This document shows positions 1-17,083 of a DNA stretch of 39,024 bases, one piece after another. Location of the stretch: assembly GCA_947259175.1 (NCBI GenBank), contig CAMYKW010000026.1, positions 1 through 39,024 of the forward strand. The letters run 5' to 3'. Origin of the DNA: an uncultured Gammaproteobacteria bacterium. Its GTDB lineage: Bacteria; Pseudomonadota; Gammaproteobacteria; Arenicellales; JAANXG01. Made by a program: the position numbers and the translations under genes. Position 1 is the first letter of the stretch; every line of letters starts with the position of its first letter. A model generated the notes under the pieces. That model searched no databases. It saw only the letters and a list, made by a program, of their open reading frames with translations, and was not told the origin of the DNA.

Positions 1-1344
1 CATCGAATATGGTCGAGCAGGATCAGGAGTTGATCGGGATCGATGCGGGCGTTTTCGGGCGAGGCGCCGATGAAGAAGTCCGGGTTGCGGATGATGTACT
101 GGTCCAGCGGGGTACTGGTCGCCACCATGACCCCCAGGGAAGGTCGCTGCGTGCGCCCGGCGCGGCCCAGGCGCTGCCAGGTGCCGGCAATAGTCCCGGG
201 GTAACCGTTCAATACACACACATCCAAAGACCCGATGTCGACACCCAGCTCCAACGCATTGGTGGCCACCACGCAGTCGAGCGCTCCGCTGCGCAGCTTG
301 CGTTCGGTCGCGCGACGCTCGGTGGGCAGATAACCGCCCCGGTAGGCCGCTACCCGCGGAGGTTTGCGCGGGTCCTTGTCGAATACGTCCTTGAGGTACT
401 TGGTCAACACCTCGACCGCGAGCCGGGTGCGGGCGAACAGAATGTTCTTGAGACCCATACGGGTCGCCATCCGTGCGATGCGGGTGCTCTGCGAACGCGC
501 CGAAGCGCGGATACCCAGATCGGGATTCACCACCGGACAACAGCAGGTGTTTCTCTCCCCGCGGGGCGCCGCTGTTTTCGATCAGCACCACGTCGTCCTC
601 GATCAGGCGCTTCGCCAGTTCCTTGGGATTGGCAATCGTCGCCGAGGTGAGGATGAATATCGGGTCGGCGCCATAAAAACGGCACACCCGTCGCAAGCGT
701 CGCAGCACGTTGGCCATGTGCGCGCCAAACACGCCGCGGTAGGTATGCATCTCATCGATCACCACGAAACGCAGGTTCTCGAAGAACTGCGCCCACTTGG
801 TGTGATGGGGGAGCACACCCTGGTGAAGCATGTCCGGGTTGGTCACCACAATGTCGCCGCGGGTACGCACGGCCTTGCGCGCGTCGCCGGGGGTGTCGCC
901 GTCGAAGGTAAACGCCTTGACCCCCAACTGTCCGGCGTGGTTGAGCTCATTGAGCTCCGTCACCTGATCCTGGGACAGGGCCTTGGTCGGAAACAGATAC
1001 ATGGCCTTGGCCTGCTCGCCGACCGCGGCCTGCAATACCGGCAGGTTGTAACACAAGGATTTGCCCGATGCGGTGGGCGTCACCACCACGATGTGCCGAC
1101 CTGCAACGGTTGCCTCCCAAGCCTGTGCCTGATGCGAGTAGAGTCTGCCGACACCACGCGCCCGCAAGGCCCCGCGCAGCCGTTCATCCAGGTCCTGGGG
1201 AAGTGAGGCATAGCTGCCGGTTCGTGCCGGAAACACCACATCCCCGGTGATGCGCTTGGCGTATTTGTGCCGCAGGTGTTGGGCGAGTCGCGTGACCGGG
1301 TCGGTCTCCACTGCATGATCGTGCTGTCGGGCTGGGGTGCTCAC
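1..1344 (-). pseudogene. MrfA/YprA-type DEAD/DEAH-box helicase, partial and frameshifted
   Basis: Reading leftward from a GTG at 1344, the protein starts [10 protein letters not shown] and shows helicase motif I ([12 protein letters not shown], near 1050-1085), motif II (DEMH, near 745-760) and motif III (TSATIANP). After KHLLL at about 540 the frame shifts by one. The next frame gives [10 protein letters not shown], then [25 protein letters not shown] and QRLGRAGR, and stays open to base 1. This motif set matches the superfamily 2 helicases with C-terminal DUF1998, such as B. subtilis MrfA (mitomycin lesion repair). Only one T lies between the two frames where relatives carry about three more residues, consistent with an 8-nt deletion. 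It could be a real mutation or an assembly error. The C terminus lies off the window. The gene diverges from lexA and shares its operator region, suggesting SOS control. Confidence 0.8.
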
Positions 1345-1349
1345 AATTT

Positions 1350-1396
1350 GTTTCCCATCTGTTCTATAATTCAATGGTATAGAACCGATAGAGAAC
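1350..1396. promoter_or_regulatory. Divergent lexA/helicase promoter with paired direct-repeat LexA boxes
   Basis: Bases 1382-1396 read GAACCGATAGAGAAC, i.e. GAAC-N7-GAAC, the reverse complement of the alphaproteobacterial LexA box GTTC-N7-GTTC. Bases 1350-1364 read GTTTCCCATCTGTTC (GTTT-N7-GTTC), a one-mismatch copy in opposite orientation. The inner halves extend to a perfect 7-bp inverted repeat, GTTCTAT (1361-1367) and ATAGAAC (1379-1385), so the 47-bp stretch is a dyad of two direct-repeat boxes. A TATAAT at 1365-1370 could be the -10 of lexA. The right-hand box ends 7 bases before the lexA start, so LexA binding would block transcription. Motif content is seen; repression is inferred. 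Confidence 0.6.
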
Positions 1397-1403
1397 GAGC
1401 AAG

Positions 1404-2021
1404 GTGCAGAACACACCCCCTGATCTGACGCGTCGCCAACGCGAGATTTATGAGTTTCTGCGGGATCACGCTGAACAGTTCGCTCACCCACCGACGCTGG
1501 ACGAACTGTGCGGGATGCTGGGACTAACCTCCCGCGGCTCGCTGCACAAACAGATCCGGGCTCTGATCGGCGCCGGGCTGGTGGAACCAATGCATAAGCA
1601 GCAGCGAGGCATCCGCCTGACGCAGCGTGCCGTGAACAACGAGTCGATGTTGCCACTGCTCGGTTACATCGCCGCGGGCAGGCCGATAGAAGCGATAAAG
1701 ACGCCGCAGACGATCGAGGTGCCGGCGCTGCTGCGCAGTCACCGTGCTTGTTACGTATTGCAGGTCAAAGGCGATTCGATGATCGAGGACGGCATCCTGG
1801 ACGGGGATTGGGTGGTGATCGAACAACGGGACAGCGCAAACAACGGGGAGATCGTGGTGGCTTTGATCGACAACGAAGAAGCCACGCTCAAGCGCATCGA
1901 GCAACATCCGCGCCGTGTCATTCTGCACCCGGCCAATGCCGACATGGAGCCGGTGACCTATCGCCCGGATCAGGTTCAGATCCAGGGTGTGCTGATCGCA
2001 CAGATGAGGAGGTACGGCTGA
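1404..2021 (+). CDS. lexA: LexA-type SOS repressor with self-cleavage protease domain
   Basis: A 205-residue protein, the usual LexA length. Residues 8-60 form the winged helix-turn-helix DNA-binding domain ([12 protein letters not shown] at its start, then [13 protein letters not shown]). The recognition part reads [13 protein letters not shown] instead of the E. coli type, matching the LexA2-like branch and the unusual operator. The S24 protease domain has the Ala-Gly cleavage site in GYIAAGRP, the catalytic Ser in GDSMIEDG and the catalytic Lys in EEATLKRIE. RecA filaments would trigger cleavage and derepress the SOS regulon. The start is a GTG just downstream of a GAAC-N7-GAAC box. The gene diverges from the MrfA-like helicase. 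Confidence 0.92.
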
Positions 2022-3476: not shown

Positions 3477-5387
3477 ATGCTGACCCTGGCGCAGGAAATC
3501 ACGCAAGCGATCATTGAGCGTGGAGAGTTATCCAAGCAGGACATACAACACTTGTGGGGTTTGGATGACGATCGCTATGCCGAGCTGCAGGCGGAACTGG
3601 GTTCGGTTCGGGTATTGGCGCCGGGTTCTCGCGGCCGCGGCGGCTTTCAGGCCAAGTATGCCAAGCGTCCCAAACCGGCTGACGAGACCGCGCCCGTTCC
3701 CGAATTTGAGCACCACTGGCAGAACCAGGGCATCGAGCGTTTGGTGGATTTACTGTCCCATGCAGACCTGGAGGGCCTGCTCGGCGAGTTGATTTACACC
3801 GTGCGCCGGGCGCGTCACAAATTAACCGGCGAGGACCGGCGCGGTAACAAGCGCGAGCTCGCGTCCGCACTGGTCATCCAACACGGCATCGACCTGTTGC
3901 GACCGCCCAAGGTGCGCAAGCTCATCGGTCGCAAGTGCCGTTTGAAGCCGCCCGTCCGGTGGTACCCGGGGAAGGCGGCGGCGCTCGCCTTCACCCAGGC
4001 GGCCGGATTTCCGGACGAGTTTGCCGGCATCCCCACGCCGGAGTCGCCGCCGGATTTTGAGTACCTGGAGGGCCGTTTCGAACTCAAGGCGCTGCAGGAT
4101 TTTCAAATCGACGTGCAGGCGCAGATGCGCGAGATTTTGGATAAACAGAAAGGCCGCGCCATCGTGACCTTGCCCACGGGCGCCGGCAAGACGCGGGTGG
4201 CGGTGGACACGATCCGCGATTGGCTGACCGAATGGTGGCGAGACCAGGAAGAGGCCGGTCGTGTCGTGCTGTGGCTCGCGCATACCGAGGAGCTGTGCGA
4301 GCAGGCCTTCGTCTGTTTCAAGCAGGTGTGGCAAGCATCGAGCGATGTCTGTCCGCTGGCGTTGTTTCGTTTCTGGGGCCGTTATACGCAGGACCTGGTC
4401 GACCACCGCGACAATCTCGCGATGATGCACCGACGGCCCGCGGTGCTGATCTCTACCCCGCACCGCATGGTCAATCTTCTCGATGGGCGCACCCCGAACG
4501 CGCATATCGTGCTGCAGGATATCCTGAGTAGCACGGCGCTGATTGTGGTCGATGAGGCCCATCGTGCCGCGGCGCCGTCGTACCGGAGGATCCTCGATGG
4601 GTTTCACAAGGCCGGCAGCGAAGCCGGTGTCATCGGCCTGACCGCAACGCCGTTTCGCCAGGAATACGACCCCAACGATCCCATCGCCGGGACCCGCGAG
4701 CTAAAACAACTCTTTCACCACATCATCGAGCCGATCAGCACCCTGGGAGATGAGCCGCGCCTCGAGCTGCAAAGGCGGGCGTTTCTGGCACAACCCCAAT
4801 GGGACGAAGTGAAGACCAATACGCTGTTGCGCCCGCCGCCGCTGGAAGATTTTAACCATTTAACGGAAGAAGACATCGAGAAGATCGATTACGCGCTGAA
4901 AATCCGCGCCGATAATACGTCGCGCCGTCTGTTGCTCCTGGATTATCTGTTCTCAGTGTGCGCGGCGCCCGAGGCCAAGGTGCTGTACTTCGGGCCCACG
5001 GTGCTCGATGCCGAGTGTATGGCGTTCTTATTGCGCCAACGCGGCATCCACTCCGCGTTTGTCAGCGGGCAGACGCGCGACGTTACGCGTCGCCAGATTG
5101 TCGAAGAGTTCAAGAGCGGCGACGTCAAGGTGTTGTGTAATTGCGAGGTGTTGACCACCGGCTTCGACGCGCCCAAGGTCACGCACGTGGTGATGGCGCG
5201 CCCGACCGTCAGTCAGGTGCTCTACGAGCAGATGGTCGGCCGCGGACTGCGGGGTCCCAAGTTCGGCGGCACTGAACATTGTCTTATCATCGACTGCGAG
5301 GACAACTACCGGGCCGATCGGCCGGTGTTGGGATACCGGCGATTCCGTGAAATCTGGGGGAAGAAACCGCGCACGCGGGCGCGGTAA
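3477..5387 (+). CDS. DEAD/DEAH-box superfamily 2 helicase with uncharacterised N-terminal domain
   Basis: A 636-residue protein. Residues about 225-400 form the first RecA-like domain, with Walker A LPTGAGKTRVA (about 232), DEAH in LIVVDEAHRA (about 359) and motif III-like IGLTATPFR (about 389). The second domain includes VLYFGPTVLDAE, LTTGFDAPKVTHVVMARPT and the arginine-finger block QMVGRGLRGPKFGGT. This architecture resembles the XPB/RAD25-like or type I/III restriction-helicase group that tracks on duplex DNA. The first roughly 200 residues (LSHADLEGLLGELIYTVRRA and following) are not a domain I recognise. The gene stands alone between DUF2333 and a HIT gene. A role in repair or defence is possible but not shown; no nuclease or methylase partner is adjacent. 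Confidence 0.8.
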   Translation: MLTLAQEITQAIIERGELSKQDIQHLWGLDDDRYAELQAELGSVRVLAPGSRGRGGFQAKYAKRPKPADETAPVPEFEHHWQNQGIERLVDLLSHADLEGLLGELIYTVRRARHKLTGEDRRGNKRELASALVIQHGIDLLRPPKVRKLIGRKCRLKPPVRWYPGKAAALAFTQAAGFPDEFAGIPTPESPPDFEYLEGRFELKALQDFQIDVQAQMREILDKQKGRAIVTLPTGAGKTRVAVDTIRDWLTEWWRDQEEAGRVVLWLAHTEELCEQAFVCFKQVWQASSDVCPLALFRFWGRYTQDLVDHRDNLAMMHRRPAVLISTPHRMVNLLDGRTPNAHIVLQDILSSTALIVVDEAHRAAAPSYRRILDGFHKAGSEAGVIGLTATPFRQEYDPNDPIAGTRELKQLFHHIIEPISTLGDEPRLELQRRAFLAQPQWDEVKTNTLLRPPPLEDFNHLTEEDIEKIDYALKIRADNTSRRLLLLDYLFSVCAAPEAKVLYFGPTVLDAECMAFLLRQRGIHSAFVSGQTRDVTRRQIVEEFKSGDVKVLCNCEVLTTGFDAPKVTHVVMARPTVSQVLYEQMVGRGLRGPKFGGTEHCLIIDCEDNYRADRPVLGYRRFREIWGKKPRTRAR

Positions 5388-14834: not shown

Positions 14835-14968
14835 CGTGCCTCGCACAGGAAAGCCATATATTTATATGTATTAAAATATGCAAATACGGAAAGACCCCGA
14901 TTTATTAGTTGAAATCGAGCGCAGTATCTGACCATGATACGTGGCACTGGACACCGTGGAGGAAAGCC

Positions 14969-17083
14969 ATGATCGTTCGATCTCTGCTCTTTGGCGTCGT
15001 TTACCTGTTATCGGTCTTCCCCGCCACGACGCTGGCGCAATTTGCCGATGTTGACCCGGCCTCCCTCAGTCTGACTCTCGACGCCGGTGATGTACACGAT
15101 CAGACGGTTTCGATCCGCATCAATCCGTTTTGCGTTCGACCCTTCGCGCTCGATGTGGTCGCTTCCCAACCCGATGCCATGGTCACGAACTTGACCGGTG
15201 TCGTGATTAATAATTGCGGCGGTGATGAGAGCAGCTTCGATACCAGAATCACCGGCACCGGCAGCCCCCAGAGTTTTGATCTACAGTTCGTCGACGCGGA
15301 ATTTGGCGGTGTCATCGCCGCGATTCCGGTAAGAGTCTCGCCCACCGGCACCGGCGCGCTACACGGAACCAAGTGGCTCGACAGCAACGGCAACGGTACG
15401 CGAGATTCTAGTGAACCGGGTCTGGCGGGGGTCACGATTTATCTCGACGTCAACAACAACCAGACGCTCGATGCAGACGAACCCGCCACGCTGACGATGG
15501 ACGACGATCCCAACACCGCCATCGACGAAACCGGCCGGTACTGGCTGCGGGATGTGGCGCCCGGCACTTACGTACTGCGGGAAGTTGTCCCCGCGGGACA
15601 CCAACAGACGTTTCCGCCCGGCGGCGGTCATGTCGTGGTACTGAACGACGGCGTCATCGAAGGCCTCGATTTCGGCAACCGGCCGCTGGCGTCGGGCTCG
15701 CTACACGGCCGCAAGTGGGTCGACCGCAACGGCGACGGTGACCGGGATTCGGACGAACCGGGATTGCCGGGTGTTACGATCTATATCGATCTGAACGTCA
15801 ATGGTCAGCTGGATGACGGTGAGCCGGTCACGCTGACCATGCGGGACGACCCGAACACGAACTTCGATGAAACCGGAAGGTATTGGATTATGGGCCTCGA
15901 ACCCGGCGTGCATGTCGTGCGCGAAATCGTGCCCGACGGATTCACGCAGACCTTCCCGCGATGCGATGGCAGCCACGTCGTCCACCTCGTTGAGAACGAC
16001 GCCATCGATGGCCTCGACTTTGGCAACCGGCCAAGCGCGCCAGAGCATTCCATCCACGGCGTCAAGTGGCTCGATCTTAATGGCGACGGCACGCGGGATC
16101 GCGGCGAGCCGGGATTGCCCGGGGTGACGATCTATGTCGATCGCAACGCAAACGGGGTGCTGGACGAGGGTGAGCCATCAACCGTGAGCATGGAAGATAA
16201 CAGCAGCACGGCTGTCGATGAATCGGGGCGCTACTGGTTGGCCGGACTGCAACCCGGTCAGCACATCATACGGGAAGTCGTGCCCGACGGCTTTGTGCAG
16301 ACCTTTCCCTCCGGGGACGGCAGCCACATAGTCACGCTCGCCGACGATAGCGTCGACGGCGTGGACTTCGGTAACCGGCGCAGACCCACCGGCACCATCG
16401 GCGGACGCAAGTGGCTGGACGTCAACGGCAACGGCCGGCGCAACGGCAACGAACCGGGGCTTCCCGGTGTGGTTATCTACGCCGACCTCAACGACAATCA
16501 GACGCTGGACGAGAATGAGCCGGCGACGCGAACGATGCGTGACGATTCCGCCACCCGCCGCGACGAGTCGGGACTCTACCGGCTGACGGGATTACCGCCC
16601 GGGCGGTATATCGTGCGCGAAGTCGTACCCGACGGCTTCGTGCAGACCTTCCCAGTGCGGGGTGGCGCCCACATCGTTGCGCTTCAAGGCGGCGTGGTGG
16701 AAGGCGTCGATTTTGGCAACCGGCGAAAACCGGCGGTCTCCGTTCACGGGACCAAGTGGCTGGATGCAAACGCCAACGGGCGCCGCGACGACAACGAGCC
16801 AGGGCTTGCGGGTGTCGTGATCTATTCCGATCTCAACCGCAACGACCGCCTGGATGACGGCGAACCGGCGGTGCGCACGCTGGGCGACGATCCGGATACC
16901 GCGATCGACGAGTCCGGGCGTTACCGGCTCACCGGCCTGCGCCGGGGGCCGAACGTGATACGGGAGGTCGTTCCCGAGGGCTTCATCCAAACGTTCCCCC
17001 GAGGGAACGGGCGTCATGTCGTCGTGATCAAAAAGCATCCAGTCCGAGGTGTCGATTTCGGCAACCGGCGCGCCGTTCGTTGA
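14969..17083 (+). CDS. Secreted protein with five tandem SdrD B-type repeats
   Basis: A 704-residue protein. A signal peptide (RSLLFGVVYLLSVFPATTLAQ) is followed by a roughly 100-residue N-terminal domain and five tandem modules of about 115 residues starting near 15353, 15695, 16046, 16391 and 16736. Each module has KWLDxNGNGxRDxxEPGLxGV, then DxNxNxxLDxxEPA, GRYWLxxLxPGxYxxREVVP, GFxQTFP and ends VDFGNR. The Asp/Asn-rich loops resemble EF-hand-like calcium sites of SdrD B domains, which form rigid stalks in staphylococcal adhesins. No sortase, PEP-CTERM or autotransporter signal is visible at the C terminus. The ATG at 14969 has GGAGG at 14958-14962; a TTG at 14909 would put 20 residues before the signal peptide. 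Probably an extracellular or surface structural protein. Confidence 0.82.
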   Translation: MIVRSLLFGVVYLLSVFPATTLAQFADVDPASLSLTLDAGDVHDQTVSIRINPFCVRPFALDVVASQPDAMVTNLTGVVINNCGGDESSFDTRITGTGSPQSFDLQFVDAEFGGVIAAIPVRVSPTGTGALHGTKWLDSNGNGTRDSSEPGLAGVTIYLDVNNNQTLDADEPATLTMDDDPNTAIDETGRYWLRDVAPGTYVLREVVPAGHQQTFPPGGGHVVVLNDGVIEGLDFGNRPLASGSLHGRKWVDRNGDGDRDSDEPGLPGVTIYIDLNVNGQLDDGEPVTLTMRDDPNTNFDETGRYWIMGLEPGVHVVREIVPDGFTQTFPRCDGSHVVHLVENDAIDGLDFGNRPSAPEHSIHGVKWLDLNGDGTRDRGEPGLPGVTIYVDRNANGVLDEGEPSTVSMEDNSSTAVDESGRYWLAGLQPGQHIIREVVPDGFVQTFPSGDGSHIVTLADDSVDGVDFGNRRRPTGTIGGRKWLDVNGNGRRNGNEPGLPGVVIYADLNDNQTLDENEPATRTMRDDSATRRDESGLYRLTGLPPGRYIVREVVPDGFVQTFPVRGGAHIVALQGGVVEGVDFGNRRKPAVSVHGTKWLDANANGRRDDNEPGLAGVVIYSDLNRNDRLDDGEPAVRTLGDDPDTAIDESGRYRLTGLRRGPNVIREVVPEGFIQTFPRGNGRHVVVIKKHPVRGVDFGNRRAVR

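Follow-up and report, generated by a model that had tools for sequence, protein, structure and literature searches.

A second LexA lineage with paired direct-repeat operators in Gammaproteobacteria and its proposed control of an MrfA-like helicase gene

The stretch of DNA analysed here (39,024 nucleotides from an uncultured gammaproteobacterium, hereafter the window) encodes at position 1404 a second LexA, LexA2, which is not the main LexA of its genome. We propose, with a probability of roughly 0.8, that LexA2 belongs to a distinct lineage and represses both its own gene and a divergent mrfA-like helicase gene through paired direct repeats, with a RecA-triggered release after DNA damage; the binding of LexA2, the placement of one dimer per repeat, the promoter positions, the dependence on RecA and the induction are those parts of the proposal that we infer from sequence. 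The evidence suggests a distinct circuit of the DNA-damage response that has been little described so far.

The divergent gap and its two operator arms

The start codons of the helicase gene (GTG 1344, minus strand) and of lexA2 (GTG 1404, plus strand) are separated by 59 bp (1345-1403), within which two inverted operator arms and the -10-like elements adjoining them are found (Table 1). An earlier, sequence-only reading of this DNA had described GAAC-N7-GAAC and a mirrored GTTT-N7-GTTC in a divergent gap of this size, and its letters and coordinates were confirmed, while the dyad formed by the inner halves, which it gave as 7 bp, in fact measures 8 bp. Together, the two arms match 15 of 16 half-site letters, a score that no dinucleotide shuffle reached, whether of the gap itself (0/4000) or of the 180 bp around it (0/4000). 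The sole other pair in the 39-kb window with a score of at least 14 makes use of the same right arm. Single boxes with at most one mismatch are not above chance in the window (26; shuffled mean: 31.9), and the signal is thus carried by the pair and its position. No CTGT-N8-ACAG site with at most one mismatch occurs in the gap, and a scan of positions 1250-1500 returned no consensus sigma-70 promoter with a -35 element.

Table 1. Features of the lexA2-mrfA region of the window
Feature	Position	Strand	Remarks
mrfA-like DEAD-box helicase gene	1-1344	-	Start GTG 1344; divergent from lexA2; contig end at 1
Operator arm 1	1350-1364	+	GTTT-N7-GTTC, GTTTCCCATCTGTTC; 7/8 half-site letters; exact GTTC-N7-GTTC in G004
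Inner dyad	1361-1385	.	GTTCTATA (1361-1368)-N9-TATAGAAC (1378-1385); arms 8 bp, perfect
TATAAT, proposed -10 of lexA promoter	1365-1370	+	Directly after arm 1
TATACC, proposed -10 of helicase promoter	1376-1381	-	Directly after arm 2
Operator arm 2	1382-1396	-	GTTC-N7-GTTC on minus strand (GAAC-N7-GAAC on plus), GAACCGATAGAGAAC; 8/8; same arm in G004
lexA2, LexA repressor of SRGSLHK type	1404-2021	+	Start GTG; LexA models over cut-off

LexA2 and the canonical LexA1 of the same genome

The translated product of lexA2 combines an N-terminal LexA DNA-binding domain (PF01726; 43.9 bits, cut-off 23.7) with a C-terminal S24 peptidase domain (PF00717; 97.8 bits, cut-off 23.3), and scores 171 bits against TIGR00498 (cut-off 110.95). 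The Ala91-Gly92 cleavage bond, Ser125 and Lys163 are invariant in all seven aligned proteins and also align to E. coli LexA. The recognition helix, SRGSLHK, is unlike that of E. coli LexA, as had been noted from the sequence alone: His48 and Lys49 align with Glu44 and Glu45 of the E. coli protein, two residues that contact DNA there. Three S24-peptidase matches are present in the genome, one of which, on contig 7, is a canonical LexA1 with the helix region SPNAADDH and a CTGT-N8-ACAG site just before its start. LexA2 and this LexA1 share 34% identity.

The closest relative found with a LexA of the window type is genome G004, the LexA of which is 88% identical, and in which both boxes are perfect and the divergent helicase is likewise present. 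Downstream of lexA2 in the window lies a DUF2333 gene, downstream of which is a gene (3477-5387) for a second protein with DEAD, ResIII and Helicase_C domains (636 amino acids). Elsewhere in the window (14909-17083), a 724 amino acid protein with five SdrD_B-like stretches is encoded, possibly a repeat protein that is secreted or located at the surface.

The MrfA-like helicase

The helicase encoded in the window is MrfA-like. Its domain matches are restricted to PF00270 (DEAD) and PF04851 (ResIII), with the contig edge falling before the region of the MZB domain. The gene matches its G004 counterpart in two tblastn-type pieces (538-1341 and 3-578; 90%), and alignment of the DNA, in which the locus is 88-92% similar, shows that 8 bases present in G004 are missing near position 538, which shifts the reading frame. 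The difference could be genuine or stem from an error in the assembly. The full helicase of locus L076 comprises DEAD, Helicase_C and MrfA Zn-binding (MZB) domains (MZB: 49.2 bits, cut-off 24.2), with an RNase_H_2 gene next to it, while no NCBIfam model matched this protein over its cut-off (best: TIGR03817, 631 versus 874). In both L076 and G004 mrfB follows mrfA, in the MrfAB arrangement; no MrfB was found in the genome of the window, whose contig ends within mrfA. Contig 114 of G004 (L327) furthermore carries a second 3' part of mrfA together with mrfB, which would represent either a second copy or a strain mixture.

Phylogenetic placement and distribution of the lineage

A tree was constructed from 119 LexA rows, eighteen of which are of the window type (helix SRGSLHK; group A). 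Group A forms one clade (100/99) within a clade of 66 rows (99/88) that it shares with groups B and C plus a single further row; the named rows of this larger clade are gamma- or betaproteobacterial. The alphaproteobacterial LexAs neighbour this larger clade (90/88, not starred), with the LexA of the window falling outside the alphaproteobacterial clade, while the canonical LexA1 proteins group far away in a clade of their own (100/100). In a faster tree of an enlarged set, six planctomycete LexAs were placed within the larger clade, so that the deep branching order is unsure.

Group A was enlarged to 42 loci, namely 44 helix matches minus L261 and L278, which were excluded by the tree; L264, whose exclusion hung on the same branch with its weak support (0.48), was retained on its helix and adjacent mrfA. 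Members of the lineage, at an E-value of 1e-55 or better, are present in 102 of 369 sampled Gammaproteobacteria genomes. Among the 41 genomes with a group A LexA, fifteen also encode a LexA1 (at least 59% identical to the LexA1 of the window genome), while none was found in 26; several of these are incomplete assemblies, but they also include Methylomicrobium sp. wino1 with a complete chromosome. A LexA with 63% identity is encoded on a Methylobacter plasmid (NZ_CP091426.1, 23981-24586), showing that the gene can be plasmid-borne. Genome G371 harbors three group A lexA genes (L269, L270 and L289), one of which is divergent from a umuD-like gene.

Conservation of the operator upstream of lexA genes

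The 180 bp around each lexA start were scanned for the operator, one of the 32 LexA1 loci being dropped as it has too little upstream sequence. The sequence-only reading had called GTTC-N7-GTTC an alphaproteobacterial type of box, distinct from that of E. coli, and had suggested a search for it before the lexA genes of relatives. Exact copies are found in 18/20 alphaproteobacterial loci, in 14/18 group A loci and in 29/40 loci of the sister-type group B, as well as in 1/7 group C and 1/10 other loci, as compared to 0/31 LexA1, 0/6 planctomycete and 0/16 CPR/acidobacterial loci; the exact box arises in at most 1.8% of the shuffles in any group. Both the assignment to the alphaproteobacterial type and the conservation among relatives are thereby borne out. 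Inverted pairs scoring at least 15/16 occur in 11/18 group A, 19/40 group B and 3/20 alphaproteobacterial loci, whereas the seven group C loci, the 31 LexA1 loci and the shuffles contain none. In 30 pairs the spacer letters of the arms agree more within a locus than between loci (4.50 versus 3.64 of 7; 0/5000 permutations). The arms of the 30 best pairs are offset by 22-37 bp, a variation for which no single helical phase is claimed.

In many group B loci TTGAAA is followed by GTTCTC-N5-GTTCTC and then by TATGCT or similar, a layout that would fit an operator between the -35 and -10 elements. The lexA gene of group B often precedes one for a Y-family polymerase (L008, L009, L013, L079, L090, L095, L098 and others), and a match to this polymerase is present in the fetched stretches of 50 of the 97 members outside group A, an operon of lexA and polymerase that carries a box of this type. 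Most group C loci (L006, L007, L149, L150, L151 and L153) contain this half-site in a compact palindrome, TGTTCTC-N6-GAGAACA or similar, rather than in a direct repeat.

The exact GTTC box accompanies 90 of 130 members with a His in the recognition helix, versus 3 of 11 without (Fisher p 0.008, a value that ignores shared ancestry). In some members in which the His is replaced, other half-sites appear, such as GTAC with Phe in L008 and GTCC with Tyr in L013. Over L008, L013, L263, L268 and L300, the His gives way to Phe, Tyr, Ser or Gln, and the half-sites are GTAC, GTCC, GTTG and GTTA/GTCA-like. A strict rule of covariation between helix and half-site was considered and rejected, since both Arg members and one of the four Ser members retain GTTC, and the covariation is therefore a tendency.

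Linkage and co-occurrence of lexA2 and mrfA

In 17/42 group A loci an MrfA match lies no more than 350 bp from the start of lexA, and it is divergent in all seventeen. Pairs scoring at least 14/16 are present in 12/17 of these helicase loci and in 14/25 group A loci without the helicase. A -10-like hexamer directed towards the helicase follows arm 2 in 13/17 helicase loci versus 7/25 of the others, three of these seven hexamers arising from a TATAATA core that can be read both ways. Further genes found divergent from group A lexA, as named from their sequences, include a uvrA-like gene (L075) and umuD-like genes (L249 and L269).

Within the 369 genomes of the class sample, mrfA is found in 17 and a group A LexA in 25, the latter counted from helix sequences; genomes G454 and G458, which have only mrfA paralogues of 42-45% identity, were left out of the 17. 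Group A LexA is encoded in 13 of the 17 mrfA genomes versus 12 of the 352 others (Fisher p 3.6e-14, calculated without regard to ancestry), and in eleven of the thirteen joint genomes the two genes lie side by side.

A better test of the link between LexA2 and mrfA is provided by unlinked mrfA genes. In G207, where mrfA and lexA2 are on separate contigs, a perfect pair (score 16), which none of 4000 shuffles matched, stands just before the ATG of mrfA, while a 7/8 box lies just upstream of the unlinked mrfA of G257. No box lies near the promoter of the G115 copy, the best match (7/8) being 417 bp ahead of the protein match. In sampled genomes that lack a group A LexA, three mrfA genes have a readable upstream region and reach at most 6/8 within 180 bp; one of these three (L315) has an 8/8 match 286 bp ahead of the protein match.

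Extent of the regulon

Single GTTC-N7-GTTC matches were discarded as a genome-wide regulon marker, given that the 121 matches in the window genome, compared to 89 for a reversed control pattern, show the single box to be too unspecific; a 23-position sequence model built on the group A arms was used instead. Of 613 initial candidates in the window genome it was applied to 150, which leaves room for overlooked weaker sites. The best two model matches, both in the window genome (15.8 and 15.2 bits) and in G004 (19.9 and 16.1 bits), are the two arms. The third match in the window genome (12.9 bits) is below a match of 14.6 bits in G003, in which no group A LexA was found, so that the targets of LexA2 here appear to be its own gene and mrfA. 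By the scores of these sites, the circuit detectable in this genome appears to consist of two genes rather than a broad SOS network. A wide regulon in G264 was likewise rejected, as five sites away from lexA have near-identical flanks when judged by eye; these sites (L359-L363) are apparently copies of a repeated element with a LexA2-like box.

Upstream of recA, a box of at least 7/8 is present in 8/17 genomes with only the window-type LexA, 2/6 with both window-type and sister-type LexAs and 2/13 that have LexA1 in addition. The resulting comparison between genomes without LexA1 (10/23) and with it (2/13) is not significant (p 0.14). The recA of the window genome has neither box type, and recA was not found in 5 of the 41 group A genomes.

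Proposed regulation and alternative explanations

Under the regulation we propose, one LexA2 dimer would bind each GTTC-N7-GTTC direct repeat. Each arm would immediately precede the -10-like element of one of the divergent promoters while falling within the leader of the second, an arrangement through which LexA2 would shut off lexA2 and the mrfA-like helicase gene together. On DNA damage, RecA filaments would trigger self-cleavage of LexA2 at Ala91-Gly92, by which both genes would be released. Counted against such a switch are the lack of a sigma-70 consensus, the missing box in G115, pairs without mrfA, the frameshift and contig-end truncation of the window mrfA, the absence of any MrfB match in the window genome and the five of seventeen helicase loci without a pair of at least 14/16.

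Several of these points would be expected if LexA2 regulated only itself, with both arms serving lexA2 and mrfA a divergent bystander. Pairs are indeed found without mrfA in 14/25 group A loci and in group B, no box lies near the promoter of mrfA in G115, and the mrfA of the window is frameshifted. Such self-regulation alone is, however, unlikely given the perfect pair and the 7/8 box at the unlinked mrfA genes of G207 and G257, the bias of the helicase-facing hexamer towards helicase loci (13/17 versus 7/25) and the co-occurrence of mrfA with group A lexA. The perfect 8-bp dyad, and the compact palindrome that this half-site forms in group C, could further be taken to mean that a single dimer has the inner palindrome, GTTCTATA-N9-TATAGAAC, as its operator, and that the N7 repeats are incidental. 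Inside the arms, however, the N7 spacing is found repeatedly, while the distance between arms varies (22-37 bp in 30 pairs), and several loci have one exact arm only, which makes this reading highly improbable. Binding of the gap by LexA1 or another factor instead of LexA2 is scarcely credible: LexA1 is present in the genome, but the gap lacks its CTGT-N8-ACAG site even when one mismatch is allowed, and the box type tracks the LexA2 lineage and not LexA1.

Repression of both lexA2 and mrfA by LexA2 is thus the preferred reading. The sequence-only reading had pictured an SOS circuit with its own operator type that directly controls the helicase. Conservation of the box, co-occurrence with mrfA and the G207 pair are in favor of this picture, which nevertheless needs amending, as the repressor would be a second LexA beside LexA1, the circuit would comprise two detectable genes and the mrfA copy of the window is frameshifted.

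On a broader scale, we see an even chance that a second LexA lineage with operators of the alphaproteobacterial direct-repeat type, often as inverted pairs, runs through the Gammaproteobacteria, being the sole LexA found in some (such as Sedimenticola and methanotrophs, where some recA promoters carry the box) and elsewhere, as here, persisting beside LexA1, reduced to a switch that controls just two genes, its own and that of the MrfAB helicase, so that the lineage records a rewiring of the SOS operator. By the present results, a sizeable part of the class possesses another LexA lineage with a different operator, in some members as the only LexA found, and SOS regulons would be overlooked or misinterpreted in these genomes if predicted from the motif of E. 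coli. It can further be predicted that the MrfAB mitomycin-repair pathway is under direct damage control in these bacteria, while the natural variants of helix and half-site provide material for testing the joint change of repressor and operator.

Comparison with known LexA and MrfAB systems

GTTC-N7-GTTC is given as the alphaproteobacterial LexA motif, and duplication of lexA with a change in motif as a theme, in PMC3323433 and PMC8565304. LexA2 resembles the alphaproteobacterial LexAs, its neighbouring clade, in half-site, spacing and direct-repeat layout (18/20 alphaproteobacterial loci) and in a His at the same position of the recognition helix (SKSGIHR). It differs in its placement in a separate clade, in a genome that also encodes LexA1, while the inverted pair is rare in the alphaproteobacterial loci (3/20) and common in groups A and B (11/18 and 19/40). 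For most beta- and gammaproteobacteria, PMC3323433 reports CTGT-N8-ACAG as the LexA site. The canonical LexAs of these classes share the domain order, cleavage site and Ser-Lys residues of LexA2, but have the helix SPNAAEE in place of SRGSLHK and the exact direct-repeat box in 0/31 loci.

Second LexA proteins are also known from Pseudomonas and Xanthomonas. The LexA2 of Pseudomonas putida recognizes an operator of its own and governs a narrow regulon that includes lexA2 itself. By description, the two systems are alike in possessing a second LexA beside LexA1 and a small gene set that includes its own gene. The P. putida gene is co-transcribed with imuA-imuB-imuC (PMC5261740), whereas the lexA2 of the window is divergent from mrfA, has DUF2333 downstream and does not share an operon with imuA, imuB and imuC.

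In Bacillus subtilis, MrfA and MrfB (YprA and YprB) are described as mitomycin repair proteins (PMC11194089; PMC12458937). By term counts, neither LexA nor SOS appears in the main texts of these two papers, and neither this LexA lineage nor LexA control of mrfAB is described in the titles and abstracts listed by searches of an open-licence library; MrfA or YprA and LexA do occur as words within the same paper (e.g. PMC12345164 and PMC6051672). The L076 locus, with its helicase of DEAD, Helicase_C and MZB domains followed by an RNase_H_2 exonuclease gene, is like the B. subtilis system, while the window differs from it in that mrfA shares its operator region with lexA2.
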